Of a DNA stretch of 64,000 bases, positions 47,408 through 51,563 are shown in pieces (within the stretch, counting starts at the first letter, position 1; every line of letters begins with the position of its first letter). Origin of the DNA: Paenibacillus xylanexedens (GTDB lineage Bacteria > Bacillota > Bacilli > Paenibacillales > Paenibacillaceae); NCBI RefSeq assembly GCF_001908275.1, contig NZ_CP018620.1, forward strand, positions 434,001 to 498,000, read 5' to 3'. The translations under genes and the position numbers were made by a program. Below the pieces are notes generated by a model. It did not search any database and had not been told where the DNA came from. It saw only the letters and a list, made by a program, of their open reading frames with translations.

Positions 47408-48703
47408 TCAGCCAAAACGCTGCGTTTTGTACCATTTGGTTTCTCTCCGGAATAGCTTATCTCCAATAAGCGAGATAAATGCTTTGACGGATATGACCAG
47501 AAATAACTGGGCATATGTGAAATAGGAGAGGCAGGCCACAATAAAATTCTGCGTATTGCTTTGCCCAATATCTGCTGAGAGTGCGAGATTAATTTGTAGT
47601 ACATAAATGTAGTACATTAATGCCCATGCTATTACGAGATACACGTAAACATCCCCTGAGAACTGGAAGGGAGAAATGACATTCGGATTAAATAATGCAA
47701 TAACCTGATACACTAGATTCGAGACAAAAATAATATCCGATACAATAATAGCGATCATAAACCAGAAATAACTTGCAGCATAGTACAGAACATGCAGTTT
47801 AATTCTCCAGCTAGTACGGTCAAATAAATGCTTCACATTGTCGATAACAACCTGGTAATTTCCCTTGGACCAGCGCTGGCGCTGTTTCATATATACCGAT
47901 AATTGCTCAGGTTCCTGCTGGTAAGCCTCTGCTTGTGGCGCTAATGCAATAAGCTGACCCCGAGTAAGAATATCAAACGACACGGCCGTATCTTCCGTGA
48001 TCGCATCAGGGTCCCATCCACCAATCTCACGGATCAGTGCTGCCTTGATAATATAGTTCGTACCAGGAATCGTGCCCAGTTTGAATAACTCCCATAGCCC
48101 CGTATGGTGAACACGTTGGACCGTTACAAGTTCCAGATTAATGCAACGGGAGAGAAAATTCTGACCCCGATTACGAGCTTTGTTTCGACCAAATACAGCA
48201 CCATACTTCTCCGGGTTTTCCAATGCTTTTTGTGTCAAAAACATCAATGCATTCCGCTCAGGCGCCGCATCTGCGTCATAGATACATATCCATTCTCCCC
48301 ACGCCAGTTTAAGGCCATCATTCAAAGCTCCCGACTTCCCACCTGTACCGGTACGCTCCAGAATGGTAAAGTCACGATCTGCATAACTCGTCTTGGCCTT
48401 GAGTTCCTTCAGGCGCTCTGCTGTATTATCTGTACAATTATCTGCAATAACAATAACTTGAACTTTATGCTCAGGGTAGTTCAGACGCAATATATGCTCA
48501 ACGGTAGACACGATAACTACCCCTTCATTATGCGCAGGCACCATGACAGTCACAGTGGGGTAATCATCCATACTTTCAGGAATTTGAATTCCCTTTTTTT
48601 CTTGTTTGTTAATGAAACGAATAGCTCCAGCCATAATGACAATCGACTCGGTGACGGATATCCAAATACTGAGGATGGACATCAACAGCAGGAAATCAGC
48701 CAT
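47408..48703 (-). CDS. Processive GT2 glycosyltransferase (YdaM/PssC-like polysaccharide synthase)
   Basis: Membrane polysaccharide synthase of 431 residues. Helix 1 is about 4-30. The GT-A domain has VMVPAHNEG (52-60), DAD at 143-145 (UDP-sugar/metal binding), TED at 236-238 (catalytic base) and Q-R-Q-R-W at 274-278, the signature of processive inverting synthases such as cellulose, hyaluronan and PNAG enzymes. Three or more helices follow (about 290-400). GGAGG lies before the ATG. Its start overlaps the 3' end of a 47-aa membrane protein gene. With the degenerate-GGDEF and GH8-like genes it forms a c-di-GMP-type exopolysaccharide locus. Polymer unknown. Confidence 0.9.
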   Translation of the reverse strand: MADFLLLMSILSIWISVTESIVIMAGAIRFINKQEKKGIQIPESMDDYPTVTVMVPAHNEGVVIVSTVEHILRLNYPEHKVQVIVIADNCTDNTAERLKELKAKTSYADRDFTILERTGTGGKSGALNDGLKLAWGEWICIYDADAAPERNALMFLTQKALENPEKYGAVFGRNKARNRGQNFLSRCINLELVTVQRVHHTGLWELFKLGTIPGTNYIIKAALIREIGGWDPDAITEDTAVSFDILTRGQLIALAPQAEAYQQEPEQLSVYMKQRQRWSKGNYQVVIDNVKHLFDRTSWRIKLHVLYYAASYFWFMIAIIVSDIIFVSNLVYQVIALFNPNVISPFQFSGDVYVYLVIAWALMYYIYVLQINLALSADIGQSNTQNFIVACLSYFTYAQLFLVISVKAFISLIGDKLFRRETKWYKTQRFG

Positions 48704-48839
48704 TCAATTTCCTCCGATCATATTTCCTGTTAATTTTCCCTCGAAAACGAAGAGTCGCAAAGGTTAATATAAGAATCGTAATGGCAAAGAAACTGCTAAC
48801 TACAATACATAATGGAACAAACCATGTTAAATAATTCAC
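48696..48839 (-). CDS. Small membrane protein of the EPS locus, 47 aa
   Basis: GTG start at 48839 with GGAGGAG upstream. One long hydrophobic helix (WFVPLCIVVSSFFAITILIL...) is followed by a basic tail (LRFRGKINRKYDRRKLNG). The stop lies inside the start of the GT2 gene (eight-base overlap), so the two are translationally coupled. Position between the c-di-GMP receptor-like gene and the synthase suggests a small synthase subunit, as seen in other processive GT2 systems (PgaD-like role), but there is no recognisable homology. Confidence 0.72.
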   Translation of the reverse strand: MNYLTWFVPLCIVVSSFFAITILILTFATLRFRGKINRKYDRRKLNG

Positions 48840-48863
48840 AGAAATACTCCTCCCCCATAGCAT

Positions 48864-49739
48864 CTAGATGTATTCACCAATGAGATCTGTCTCTGTGTTC
48901 CGTTCCAGTGCCGCAATAACAGCATCGATATCCTCATACTTACTGAATTGTTCCTTCTGAAATACCAGTGCACCCGATCGAATAACCGTCTGCAACTCAT
49001 TTCCCTTTTTATCGATGATTTGCAGATCCATCATGGCTTTTTTGATCCGTTGTGTCAGGATGGGCAGGTACTCCACATTGGTCATTGGACAGATAATCAC
49101 AAAACGTCCTCGATCCACAAAAAATTTATAATCCTCAAACCGAATCTGCTTCTGTATGGTAGTGGATAGTTCAAGAAGGAACTGTGCATAACGTACGGAA
49201 CCGAGTGATTCCAGTACCAACGGCAAAAACTCGATCTTGAACATCGCCATGCTGAATCCATATTGCTCCGAATAACGTCTGGCTAGATTACTTTGCTTAA
49301 CAAGCGTATCCGCAAGTGCATCCTTATTGCCCAGAGAGGTATCCAGATCAATCTCCGGATTACGCTCCTGAAGCTCCTGCAGACGCTCCATGACACGCGC
49401 ATTGCGCACAAGACTTGCCTTGATAAAAGCAGCCACAGCCACATTGGCTGGAATGAGCAGCCACCAAGAGAACGTAAGTACACTTACATCCGCGTAGGTA
49501 ACAAGCCATACAAAATAAGAGACCAGATAGATAAATCCGGCGACGACAGATACCCCGACAGGTATCACAAAACCCAGGATCAGCGCTCCAAGCGACACAA
49601 TGCTAAACACCACATCCAGTGTAGTATAACTCTGATTCATATAAATCTTAAGATAGACAACGAGCTGCTGGATTACGGCTAATCCAATCAAACTCGCATA
49701 TCCCCATGCAATACGAAGGATGGGTGCTTTATTCCTCAT
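48864..49739 (-). CDS. Degenerate GGDEF membrane protein with intact RxxD I-site (YdaK/PssE-like)
   Basis: Likely c-di-GMP receptor of 291 residues. Four membrane helices (about 10-30, 44-65, 66-85, 90-110) precede a cytoplasmic GGDEF-like domain (about 130-285). The catalytic signature is lost: the GGDEF position reads DRGRF (209-213). The inhibitory site R200-F-E-D203 sits exactly five residues before it, the canonical RxxD distance. This combination is that of the effectors YdaK and PelD. I start at MRNKAP (ATG 49739, GGAGAG upstream) rather than 25 codons earlier. It would switch on the neighbouring synthase on binding c-di-GMP (inference). Confidence 0.85.
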   Translation of the reverse strand: MRNKAPILRIAWGYASLIGLAVIQQLVVYLKIYMNQSYTTLDVVFSIVSLGALILGFVIPVGVSVVAGFIYLVSYFVWLVTYADVSVLTFSWWLLIPANVAVAAFIKASLVRNARVMERLQELQERNPEIDLDTSLGNKDALADTLVKQSNLARRYSEQYGFSMAMFKIEFLPLVLESLGSVRYAQFLLELSTTIQKQIRFEDYKFFVDRGRFVIICPMTNVEYLPILTQRIKKAMMDLQIIDKKGNELQTVIRSGALVFQKEQFSKYEDIDAVIAALERNTETDLIGEYI

Positions 49740-49851
49740 AGGTTTCTTCTCTCCAGTAGATTGGTTAGTGATATTTCGAGTAAACAATATATGACATGAA
49801 TAGACAAACATCATGTTAACACATTGTTGAATATATTAAATGACATTTTTA

Positions 49852-50961
49852 TTACTTTTTAAGTAACTTTTGTAATTCAGTCTCCCCAAGCAAAGGAAAC
49901 AGGTTATCAAACATATGTGTGTTTCCACTAAATACATATCCGCCTGGATAACTGGCGTCCAGACTACGCATGCTGATCATATGCTTATACAGCTGTTTCG
50001 CCCATTTTGGATCACCTGACTGAACCGCAAGCAGCATCGCGAGTCCATATACGGATGGAGATTGGTAAGATACCGCAGGTGTGCGAGTACTACGCTTATA
50101 TTGTCCCGGCAGCTGATGACGGGTATTGAATTCTTTTTTCAAAAAAGCAATGAGCTTGTCCGGTTTGCGGCTGGTCGCAGTTAGATGGTTCGCTACGATC
50201 AGCTGATCAATCAGATTCACTGTGTCATCATATGTATACTCTTTCGTCCCCACATTGAATGTTTTCGGATAAAATATCCCGTCATCCGGCATACTCTTCA
50301 ACATGGATTCGTACTTGGCATATGTGCCCGGCTCCAGCATTTCATGCTTCTCCATTAATTGGAGAGACGGTAGATCCACATAAACCAGGCTTAACATATC
50401 CGCGGAGTAACCGTTGCCAAAATCGTGAAAATCAACATAATATCCTTTATTCTGAACCGACTGCGTCAGTGTACGGGAAATATCCGAGGCCGTTGCCAGT
50501 TTGGCTTCTCTTCCCTGTTGCCATTGATCTGCTGCCTTTAATAAGGCACCGACAATTCGGAAATCATCACCGAGCGCGTTGGTGGTCACGTGAGATTTTC
50601 CCTCAGCATCCAGCTTCCAGGCAATATATTTTTGCGGCATGAGGAAATAGGTCGTCAGCAGCTCATAGCTTTGCTCAAATAACGCCTGATCGTTCTTGGC
50701 CACAGCATATTGCATCCAAAGACCAAGTGATTCAGATAAAACCTCTCTGCCTGCTACGATATCCGCTTTTTCGGATGTGGCATCCTGCAAATAGGACGCA
50801 AGTAAACCATTGGGATTGGTCATATGATCTTGTACAAAGGATACTGTAGGGGATAATTCATTCATCACGAACCGCTCCTTCATGAAAATAATGAACGCTG
50901 CTGCAATACTGACCACCAATATGACCAACCACGTTACTGTTTTCCGGTTCATTCTCTTCAT
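49852..50961 (-). CDS. Membrane-anchored GH8-like glycosidase (YdaJ/PssA-like)
   Basis: Extracytoplasmic protein of 369 residues with an N-terminal anchor (about 9-27) and an (alpha/alpha) barrel like GH8. Glu77 in VLSESLGLWMQYA is at the general-acid position (S-E-G-x-G-Y in GH8). Acidic residues 132-133 in LGDDFRIVGAL match the second GH8 motif. Later segments GNGYSADMLSLVYVDLPSL and SYQSPSVYGLAMLLAV fit the same fold. ATG at 50961 follows AGGAGGG; the longer frame by 35 codons lacks support. YdaJ/PssA proteins are encoded with c-di-GMP-activated EPS synthases and may trim the polymer (inference). Confidence 0.82.
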   Translation of the reverse strand: MKRMNRKTVTWLVILVVSIAAAFIIFMKERFVMNELSPTVSFVQDHMTNPNGLLASYLQDATSEKADIVAGREVLSESLGLWMQYAVAKNDQALFEQSYELLTTYFLMPQKYIAWKLDAEGKSHVTTNALGDDFRIVGALLKAADQWQQGREAKLATASDISRTLTQSVQNKGYYVDFHDFGNGYSADMLSLVYVDLPSLQLMEKHEMLEPGTYAKYESMLKSMPDDGIFYPKTFNVGTKEYTYDDTVNLIDQLIVANHLTATSRKPDKLIAFLKKEFNTRHQLPGQYKRSTRTPAVSYQSPSVYGLAMLLAVQSGDPKWAKQLYKHMISMRSLDASYPGGYVFSGNTHMFDNLFPLLGETELQKLLKK

Positions 50962-51062
50962 GATTCCCTCCTGTACTTTTGCTATTGTGAGATAATGACT
51001 CTGCTCCTTGAGATCGGTTCGGCTAGGGTCTGAGATGTAGGGGTCAAGGATAGAGGTATTGT

Positions 51063-51539
51063 TCATTCTAAGATATCCATGTAGGACCGCCGGCCGCCCT
51101 TTTTGACAAATTTCCAGTCTACCTCGATGTTGTGGCGCATTCGGCGGAGAAGCTTAACCGTTGTCTCTATCTCTTCATCCGTAAAGCCGTCCAGCGTCAC
51201 CTGGTCGGAATGCTCGCCCTCTTTACGAATGAATTCCCATGCTTTCAGGCCAGCTTCTGTCGGATATAACAACTTGTTCTTCTTATTGTCTATTGCCGAC
51301 TGTTTGACAATAAATCCATCGGATTCGAGTTTGCTAATCGCTCTGGCCGCTGTCGTTCGATCTACTTTGATTAGTTCAGCCAGCTGGTTGGGAATAATGC
51401 CCGGATTCTCACATATGCGATAAAGATACAGATATTGGCCTCGGGACAAGTTCAGATGTTGAAATTCGACATTGCTGATCGAATCCAGACAGCGGGCAAT
51501 CATGCCAATTTCACGCAACACTTCTTTTTTATCAGTCAA
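51063..51539 (-). CDS. MarR-family regulator upstream of the EPS locus
   Basis: Winged-helix regulator of 158 residues. HTH: IIPNQLAELIKVDRTTAARAISKLESDGFIVKQ; wing SAIDNKKNKLLYPTEAG. Start chosen as TTG 51539, since AAGGA is 9-10 nt upstream; a GTG three codons earlier lies too close to it. Same strand as the GH8-like gene, 101 nt upstream of it, so it may be the first gene of the locus or its regulator. A dyad (TGTTG-n6-CAACA) lies just upstream. Confidence 0.85.
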   Translation of the reverse strand: MTDKKEVLREIGMIARCLDSISNVEFQHLNLSRGQYLYLYRICENPGIIPNQLAELIKVDRTTAARAISKLESDGFIVKQSAIDNKKNKLLYPTEAGLKAWEFIRKEGEHSDQVTLDGFTDEEIETTVKLLRRMRHNIEVDWKFVKKGGRRSYMDILE

Positions 51540-51563
51540 TGCGCTCACGTCCTTTTATAAAAT

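Follow-up and report, generated by a model that had tools for sequence, protein, structure and literature searches.

A compact minus-strand operon was analyzed in a 64,000-nucleotide stretch of the genome of Paenibacillus xylanexedens (NZ_CP018620.1, positions 434,001 to 498,000), here called the window. Judged from sequence comparison and predicted structure, this operon probably encodes a synthase-dependent exopolysaccharide (EPS) system that is free of BcsB. Here, a membrane receptor with a degenerate GGDEF domain would, once bound to cyclic di-GMP (c-di-GMP), activate a synthase consisting of a family 2 glycosyltransferase (GT2) and a microprotein of 47 amino acids. The probability of this reading is estimated at about 0.68.

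The window is located on contig 1 of the 7.1-Mb genome. According to the open reading frames (ORFs) called in it, the operon is transcribed in the order MarR regulator, hydrolase, receptor, 47-amino acid protein and GT2, and displays the following features:

51063..51548, minus strand: MarR-family regulator, 161 amino acids (Pfam MarR 40 bits; GTG start at 51548)
49852..50961, minus strand: membrane-anchored GH126-type hydrolase, 369 amino acids (ATG preceded by CAGGAGGG)
48864..49739, minus strand: receptor with four predicted membrane helices and a degenerate GGDEF domain, 291 amino acids (ATG at 49739 preceded by GGAGAGAAG)
49131..49142, minus strand: I-site motif RFED, residues 200-203 of the receptor (RxxD conservation)
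49101..49115, minus strand: degenerate signature, DRGRF instead of GG(D/E)EF, residues 209-213 (receptor alignment)
48696..48839, minus strand: 47-amino acid microprotein with one membrane helix (GTG at 48839 preceded by GGGGGAGGAG)
47408..48703, minus strand: processive GT2 polysaccharide synthase, 431 amino acids (DAD143, TED236, QRQRW274)

An earlier note on this stretch, made from the sequence alone, had set the boundary of the operon at 51539, which is an in-frame TTG; the MarR ORF extends to 51548. The composition of the module was scored by tblastn in 64 named loci, the set retrieved with the receptor as bait. Receptor, 47-amino acid protein and GT2 are each matched in 64 of 64 loci, whereas 49 contain a match to the hydrolase, 19 to MarR and 17 to the methyltransferase encoded next to the GT2. 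On these counts, the triad of receptor, microprotein and GT2 appears to be the core and the remaining operon genes accessory. In a first set of 30 receptor-bait loci, the window among them, receptor, small protein, GT2 and hydrolase are present throughout. MarR is accessory and adjoins the module in part of the genus only. The earlier statement that the locus stands under a MarR regulator thus does not extend to the named loci in general.

The receptor carries RFED from residue 200 and DRGRF from residue 209, with exactly five residues between both motifs, as had been described before. Its GGDEF domain is recognized by Pfam with 31.6 bits (cut-off 23.8), and the structure models display four membrane helices followed by a GGDEF fold (mean pLDDT 60 and 65, highest in the GGDEF part). 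A PDB search with the model gave 1227 matches at E 10; the best 50 all contain a GGDEF domain, several of them with c-di-GMP bound. Furthermore, the receptor profile aligns with a YdaK-type profile at 99.2% probability across 228 columns. On sequence level, R200, E202, D203, G211, R212 and F213 are invariant in 28 aligned receptors including that of the window. Outside the Lactobacillales, RxxD is present in 97 of 97 alignment rows, namely 76 rows of the type found in the window, that of the window itself, 18 of the Yda type and two from orphan loci; among the 76, a few genomes appear twice with different locus ids, and two rows lie outside the family. A loss of RxxD in orthologues, named earlier as an argument against c-di-GMP binding, is not seen in the Paenibacillaceae: 119 of the best 120 of 213 receptor homologues keep the motif, and the single miss is a fragment of 207 amino acids. 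The signature reads xxG(R/Q)F in 76 of the 77 window-type rows and DHARF in the other one, GGDEF or GGEEF in none. Since the catalytic acidic position is a glycine, no cyclase activity is expected from the receptor.

For related receptors, binding of c-di-GMP has been reported. YdaK of Bacillus subtilis, with the signature SDERI, binds c-di-GMP with a KD of about 1 µM and needs R202 and D205 for EPS (PMC5422440). PssE of Listeria, with the signature DKDDA and RxxD five residues upstream of it, shows a Kd of 0.79 µM (PMC4125290). The genome of the window itself contains 15 GGDEF matches at E 0.001, receptor included, and 13 at 1e-10; at the latter threshold, 5-17 matches are present in each of 60 out of 60 genomes of the genus.

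The microprotein consists of a single hydrophobic helix (residues ~7-25) and a basic C-terminal tail that carries a motif of the KYDRRK type, which agrees with the small membrane protein of the earlier note. Its stop overlaps the start of the GT2 gene by 8 nucleotides in the window, and the same overlap is found in 57 of the 64 named loci. R33, Y40 and R42 do not vary in any of the 64 aligned rows, nor do W6 and P9 in those 63 rows with the first half in frame (in L064 only the second half is in frame). Due to these invariant residues and the tblastn match in every named locus, the ORF is regarded as real and not as a product of chance. The dN/dS is about 0.32, a rough value from diverged pairs. 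In 118 locus pairs with receptors more than 80% identical, which are non-independent, the identity of the microprotein tracks that of the GT2 (Spearman 0.93) and not that of the receptor (0.21), because some species pair a different GT2-microprotein set with a near-identical receptor. The 120 homologues found, which occur in Paenibacillus, Brevibacillus, Enterococcus and Limosilactobacillus, contain no Pfam domain; where they are named, this is mostly as hypothetical proteins, and two bear odd automatic names. The helix protein had been taken for a local substitute of missing genes; instead, it is a regular partner of the whole branch, as described below for the Lactobacillales. Descent from the membrane anchor of BcsB was considered and rejected with regard to homology, with an hhalign probability of 3.2% versus 0.4-0.9% for three controls; only the topology fits.

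The GT2 contains the processive motifs that had been pointed out, DAD at 143, TED at 236 and QRQRW at 274, and DAD, TED and QxxRW are kept in 62, 62 and 61 of 62 relatives. A search for BcsB (PF03170) found nothing in the genome and was positive in the E. coli and B. subtilis controls. A YdaL-like gene is not present in the operon, in which receptor, 47-amino acid ORF and GT2 are contiguous and leave no room for it; the search for YdaL was confined to the operon. The reported absence of YdaL and YdaN/BcsB genes from the operon was thus confirmed, and BcsB was also sought in related genomes, as had been proposed. Among 296 genomes of the order, the GT2 bait and the receptor bait select the identical 54 genomes, and the GT2-bait scores leave a clear gap between the minimal type (at least 559 bits) and 110 other genomes (at most 374 bits). 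As five candidates per genome were scored, this comparison alone is weak for mutual exclusion; hence BcsB was surveyed in all 54 genomes of the minimal type and, of the 110 others, in the 26 with the highest scores. It is present in 1 of the 54, in an assembly that is 84% complete and 7% contaminated, versus 26 of the 26 Yda-type genomes tested. Because of this distribution, the minimal and the BcsB-containing kinds seem to fill the same place.

Centred on BcsB, 20 loci were fetched, which contain hydrolase and GT2 in 19 cases, the receptor in 18 and the microprotein in none. In 19 of them the GT2 profile matches at 1e-93 to 1e-104 and the hydrolase profile at 1e-31 to 1e-103; together with the receptor profiles, this corroborates the kinship to YdaJKLMN and Pss that had been recognized before. 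In one such locus the large neighbours were checked, and one is a BcsB and one weakly resembles DUF2334 of YdaL. In a GT2 tree (quick search, unrooted), the Paenibacillaceae-type and the Lactobacillales minimal types form one group each and lie together opposite all Yda/Pss rows, the long branch being supported by an SH-aLRT of 98 for the minimal types and 97 for the 38 rows from Yda/Pss-type loci. A second tree excludes the rows X2_L166, YL_L253, YL_L246 and YL_L247. Because of the GT2 tree, the minimal-type GT2 is assigned to a separate sister branch of Yda/Pss and not to a Yda operon that recently lost genes. The term minimal Yda locus is therefore appropriate for the relationship and for the missing YdaL and BcsB genes, but not in the sense of a reduced Yda operon.

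For the hydrolase, a membrane-anchored GH8-like protein had been proposed. The anchor is present as a helix of residues 9-27, but the family assignment has to be revised. The closest solved structures are PDB 3ren (E 4.6e-25) and 6r2m (E 3.9e-20), which are CPF_2247 of C. perfringens and PssZ of Listeria (PMC13363691), both assigned to GH126 (PMC7479077). The Pfam GH8 match of 28.9 bits (cut-off 24) covers only positions 51-156 of the 341-position model, about 100 residues; for contrast, the same model gives 102 and 92 bits over nearly its full length in L178 and L180. By these comparisons, the hydrolase fits GH126 better than GH8. The marker residues of CPF_2247 are E84, D136, R139, Y194 and Y307, with roles taken from PMC7479077, and the putative catalytic or functional residues E77, D132, R135, Y194 and Y305, read off the structure-match alignment, are conserved without exception in 50 sequences. 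Therefore, an active enzyme is expected; the chemistry of GH126 itself is disputed (PMC13363691).

The minimal type extends into the Lactobacillales, where 24 of 246 genomes reach minimal-type scores in the GT2 search. In the 23 loci examined (L207, at a contig edge, lies outside these), a receptor homologue is located beside the GT2 and a GH8-type gene beside the receptor. The microprotein is matched in 22 of the 23, all but L233, by a profile partly built from such sequences. Here, the arginine of the I-site is found in none of 22 aligned receptors, which read SxxD, LxxE, KxxE, IxxE, YxxE or FxxD. The same holds for streptococcal receptor homologues, whose named members are Streptococcus: none of the 119 scored among 120 listed has the arginine, and one deviates from the pattern. 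The I-site counts exclude L229, whose receptor is shortened by ORF calling and reads YxxE in the remainder, L207, as well as L246, L247 and L253, which are without an orthologous receptor. Of three Lactobacillales receptors scanned with the Pfam GGDEF model, two are not recognized and the third stays below the cut-off; the profile match to the Lactobacillales receptors is still full length, with 97.3% probability.

Of the 24 minimal-type genomes of the Lactobacillales, 21 are without a GGDEF match at 1e-10. G613, G652 and G690 are discordant cases, in which the I-site is gone yet one intact GG(D/E)EF protein each is encoded. Within the same order, 15 of 17 Yda-type receptors read retain RxxD. 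Yda-type receptors without RxxD occur in L245 (NxxN) and L235 (GxxG); the one of G751 reads GxxG despite two intact GG(D/E)EF proteins in the genome, and the one of G768 reads NxxN in a genome without a GGDEF match. Gating by c-di-GMP is therefore not a safe assumption for all members of the minimal branch, given that the I-site is gone from its Lactobacillales part; this loss suggests that the receptor may have a structural role which outlives its signal.

A plasmid search resulted in 13 records, 8 from Lactiplantibacillus, 1 from Latilactobacillus, 3 from Listeria and 1 from Enterococcus. The three plasmids read (L265, L266 and L267; two from L. plantarum, one from L. sakei) are mobilizable and carry the triad and the GH8-annotated gene, and the I-site is absent. 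Their annotation lists a hypothetical protein, a glycosyltransferase and a glycosyl hydrolase of family 8; the microprotein homologue, present in all three, is an unannotated ORF of 46 or 48 amino acids. Among the chromosomal loci, L216 is a streptococcal-type copy with its GT2 broken into ORFs of 303 and 113 amino acids. L246 and L247 combine a Yda-type GT2 with a GH126-type gene and wecB, with no GGDEF receptor nearby, perhaps in a gts-type arrangement.

Gene set, gene order, conservation, motif state and the lack of a BcsB match are read directly from the sequence, and binding at the I-site as well as its requirement for EPS are taken from relatives. Ligand binding in the window, the role of the microprotein, the product and the action of the receptor on the GT2-microprotein pair are inferred as follows. 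The c-di-GMP made by some of the dozen or so GGDEF enzymes of the cell would bind to the receptor at its I-site, RFED. The inactive GGDEF domain, tethered to the membrane by four helices, would shift its conformation and turn on the GT2-microprotein complex, which would polymerise an activated sugar and extrude the chain. The microprotein may serve as a membrane subunit stabilizing the membrane part of the synthase, like PgaD for PgaC or the BcsB anchor for BcsA; for PgaC, activity requires the small membrane protein PgaD (PMC8461298). On the outer side of the membrane, the GH126 hydrolase may trim or clear the polymer.

Other explanations have to be weighed against this proposal. The receptor, GT2 and hydrolase families common to both kinds would also be in line with a YdaJKLMN operon that recently shed YdaL and YdaN in this lineage and acquired the small ORF as a lineage-specific patch. 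This is improbable, since the unrooted tree places the minimal GT2s of both Paenibacillaceae and Lactobacillales on one side and the Yda/Pss rows on the other, and the microprotein accompanies both minimal groups, but none of the BcsB-centred loci. The overlap with the GT2 start, in turn, would suit a translational-coupling leader that is no functional subunit. That the 47-amino acid ORF is such a leader appears very improbable in view of its five invariant residues, its dN/dS and the homologues of like size and place in the Lactobacillales loci and on the three plasmids read. Furthermore, the degenerate GGDEF domain could be a scaffold independent of c-di-GMP, or bind another ligand, with RxxD as a relic; the Lactobacillales, which kept the gene beside the GT2 without the arginine, speak for this. 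However, RxxD is retained in the cyclase-rich Paenibacillaceae though the receptor identity falls to 52%, and binding of c-di-GMP has been shown by experiment for the relatives YdaK and PssE, which makes this explanation unlikely.

With regard to the product, a synthase of poly-N-acetylglucosamine (PNAG) similar to Ica/Pga, with an IcaD/PgaD-like subunit, deserves attention, since PgaC_IcaA is the best NCBIfam model of the GT2 and a small membrane partner fits. It is nevertheless rather doubtful, as the score stays far below the requirement, no deacetylase gene of the IcaB/PgaB type is found among the five operon genes, and PssC of Listeria is also PNAG-like by sequence (PMC4125290), yet the EPS is reported as N-acetylmannosamine (ManNAc)-Gal (PMC5422440). 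Moreover, wecB is linked to the module in relatives. It adjoins the module in 9 of the 23 Lactobacillales loci and in one of the three plasmids read, in differing positions; these copies belong to 8 loci that carry the genus code g74 and are regarded as streptococcal, one other Lactobacillales locus and the L. sakei plasmid. In two further loci wecB lies beside a Yda-type GT2. Two adjacent WecB proteins were scanned with TIGR00236 and reach 518 and 511 bits (cut-off 210). WecB is the UDP-N-acetylglucosamine 2-epimerase, which makes UDP-ManNAc. In Listeria, the backbone of the Pss polymer consists of ManNAc (PMC5422440), and this ManNAc-galactose EPS is degraded by the GH126 enzyme PssZ (PMC7479077). 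Because of the wecB linkage in relatives and the GH126 hydrolase shared with PssZ, a ManNAc-type EPS like that of Listeria Pss is tentatively preferred over cellulose or PNAG. This is the weakest step, and the product remains a guess because wecB was not found near the 64 named loci. Slightly short of an even chance is given to a wider proposal, in which the module would represent a distinct EPS class, marked by the triad, independent of BcsB and YdaL and producing a ManNAc polymer, that was rewired in evolution, being gated by c-di-GMP in Paenibacillaceae and free of it in oral streptococci, enterococci and plasmid-bearing lactobacilli; there, the GGDEF domain without I-site would be a permanent subunit or a sensor of another signal.

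Several observations weigh against the c-di-GMP-gated, BcsB-free synthase proposed here. The missing wecB in the named loci is one of these, as is the fact that the PNAG synthase model PgaC_IcaA (TIGR03937) is the best NCBIfam hit of the GT2, at 163.1 of the required 422.3 bits. The receptor models are of modest confidence, and 15 of the 64 named loci gave no match to the hydrolase. Across all 58 loci, the identity of the microprotein follows that of the receptor (0.58) slightly more than that of the GT2 (0.47), reversing the order seen in the close pairs, and no sequence homology to the BcsB C-terminus was found at the 3.2% probability given above. In L233 (2851-5176), a microprotein match is missing and only 82 bases separate receptor and GT2; this GT2 is the most divergent of the Lactobacillales minimal-type group. 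The Lactobacillales keep the module without the I-site, so the module can persist without c-di-GMP. Loss of the I-site and loss of cyclases go in the same direction, but with three independent changes this is not significant; random pairings gave about 2 pairs the same way, 0 opposite and 1 tie. In this test, the Paenibacillaceae-type rows were scored as having cyclases from the genus survey and not per genome, and the YD rows were excluded from the cyclase column.

Compared to known systems, the module is related to Yda/Pss and would work like these, but it lacks what defines them: the BcsB partner, YdaL and the GT2 branch. With YdaJKLMN of B. subtilis it shares four helices and a degenerate GGDEF domain in the receptor (YdaK), RxxD five residues before the signature and the GT2 (PMC5422440), and the Yda-type loci of Bacilli mostly begin with a hydrolase matched by the hydrolase profile of the window. 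In contrast, the window type is without YdaL and YdaN/BcsB, belongs to a separate GT2 branch and has the microprotein, a feature of its own versus Yda/Pss. Listeria PssA-E likewise combines an I-site receptor with a GT2 (PMC4125290), and PssZ belongs to GH126 as does the hydrolase of the window; Pss, compared here by its description, differs in the BcsB-like PssD (PMC4125290). In PgaCD/IcaAD, too, the GT2 needs a small membrane protein in which no domain is known. Here, however, c-di-GMP binds PgaC and PgaD directly, without a GGDEF receptor (PMC8461298). The GT2 of the window lies far below the cut-off of the PgaC/IcaA family. Furthermore, PgaD is larger than the microprotein and has two helices. 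PelD and BcsE resemble the receptor in that an inactive GGDEF domain binds c-di-GMP via RxxD/I-site and controls EPS; PelD differs in its GAF domain and its GT4 partner PelF, and BcsE is soluble and part of cellulose secretion (PMC8461298). The gts operon of Lactobacillus acidophilus encodes a GT2 with a membrane partner, yields EPS in E. coli and contains a c-di-GMP receptor, which in contrast is a degenerate EAL protein (PMC6123363).

In the window, the GT2 gene is followed downstream by the methyltransferase gene; beyond the MarR gene, a GNAT gene and rlmN are found. No c-di-GMP riboswitch was matched by Rfam at gathering threshold within the window, and promoter and terminator scans scored no better than shuffles. 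PilZ proteins number 3 in the genome and 0 within the window. On the same contig 1, at ~628 kb, L104 encodes a BcsA-like GT2 with a PilZ domain in an open frame of 787 amino acids, in this genome without a BcsB match. L164 and L165 (~8.5-10.6 kb) are orphan hydrolase-receptor pairs without microprotein or GT2, RxxD being intact in both, and the pair of L164 adjoins an rlmN-like gene; in these genomes, receptor, microprotein and GT2 are located elsewhere without hydrolase (L182 and L183). The hydrolase-free loci L037, L038 and L068 contain a second, distant GT2 a few kb downstream. A literature search found the triad, the microprotein or such a Paenibacillus receptor in no title or abstract opening, which is a weak negative as subscription papers are mostly outside its coverage.

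If the proposal is true, none of the other systems compared here would have a smaller c-di-GMP-controlled polysaccharide synthase than this one, which includes an unnamed subunit of 47 residues. It would also reveal how BcsB can be substituted in a Gram-positive synthase. In Paenibacillus, whose genomes encode about a dozen GGDEF proteins each, the module is a likely EPS target of c-di-GMP. The branch in the lactic acid bacteria would then represent a natural experiment, in which the same machine is kept without the signal-binding site, in genomes that mostly lack cyclases (21 of 24) and also on plasmids.

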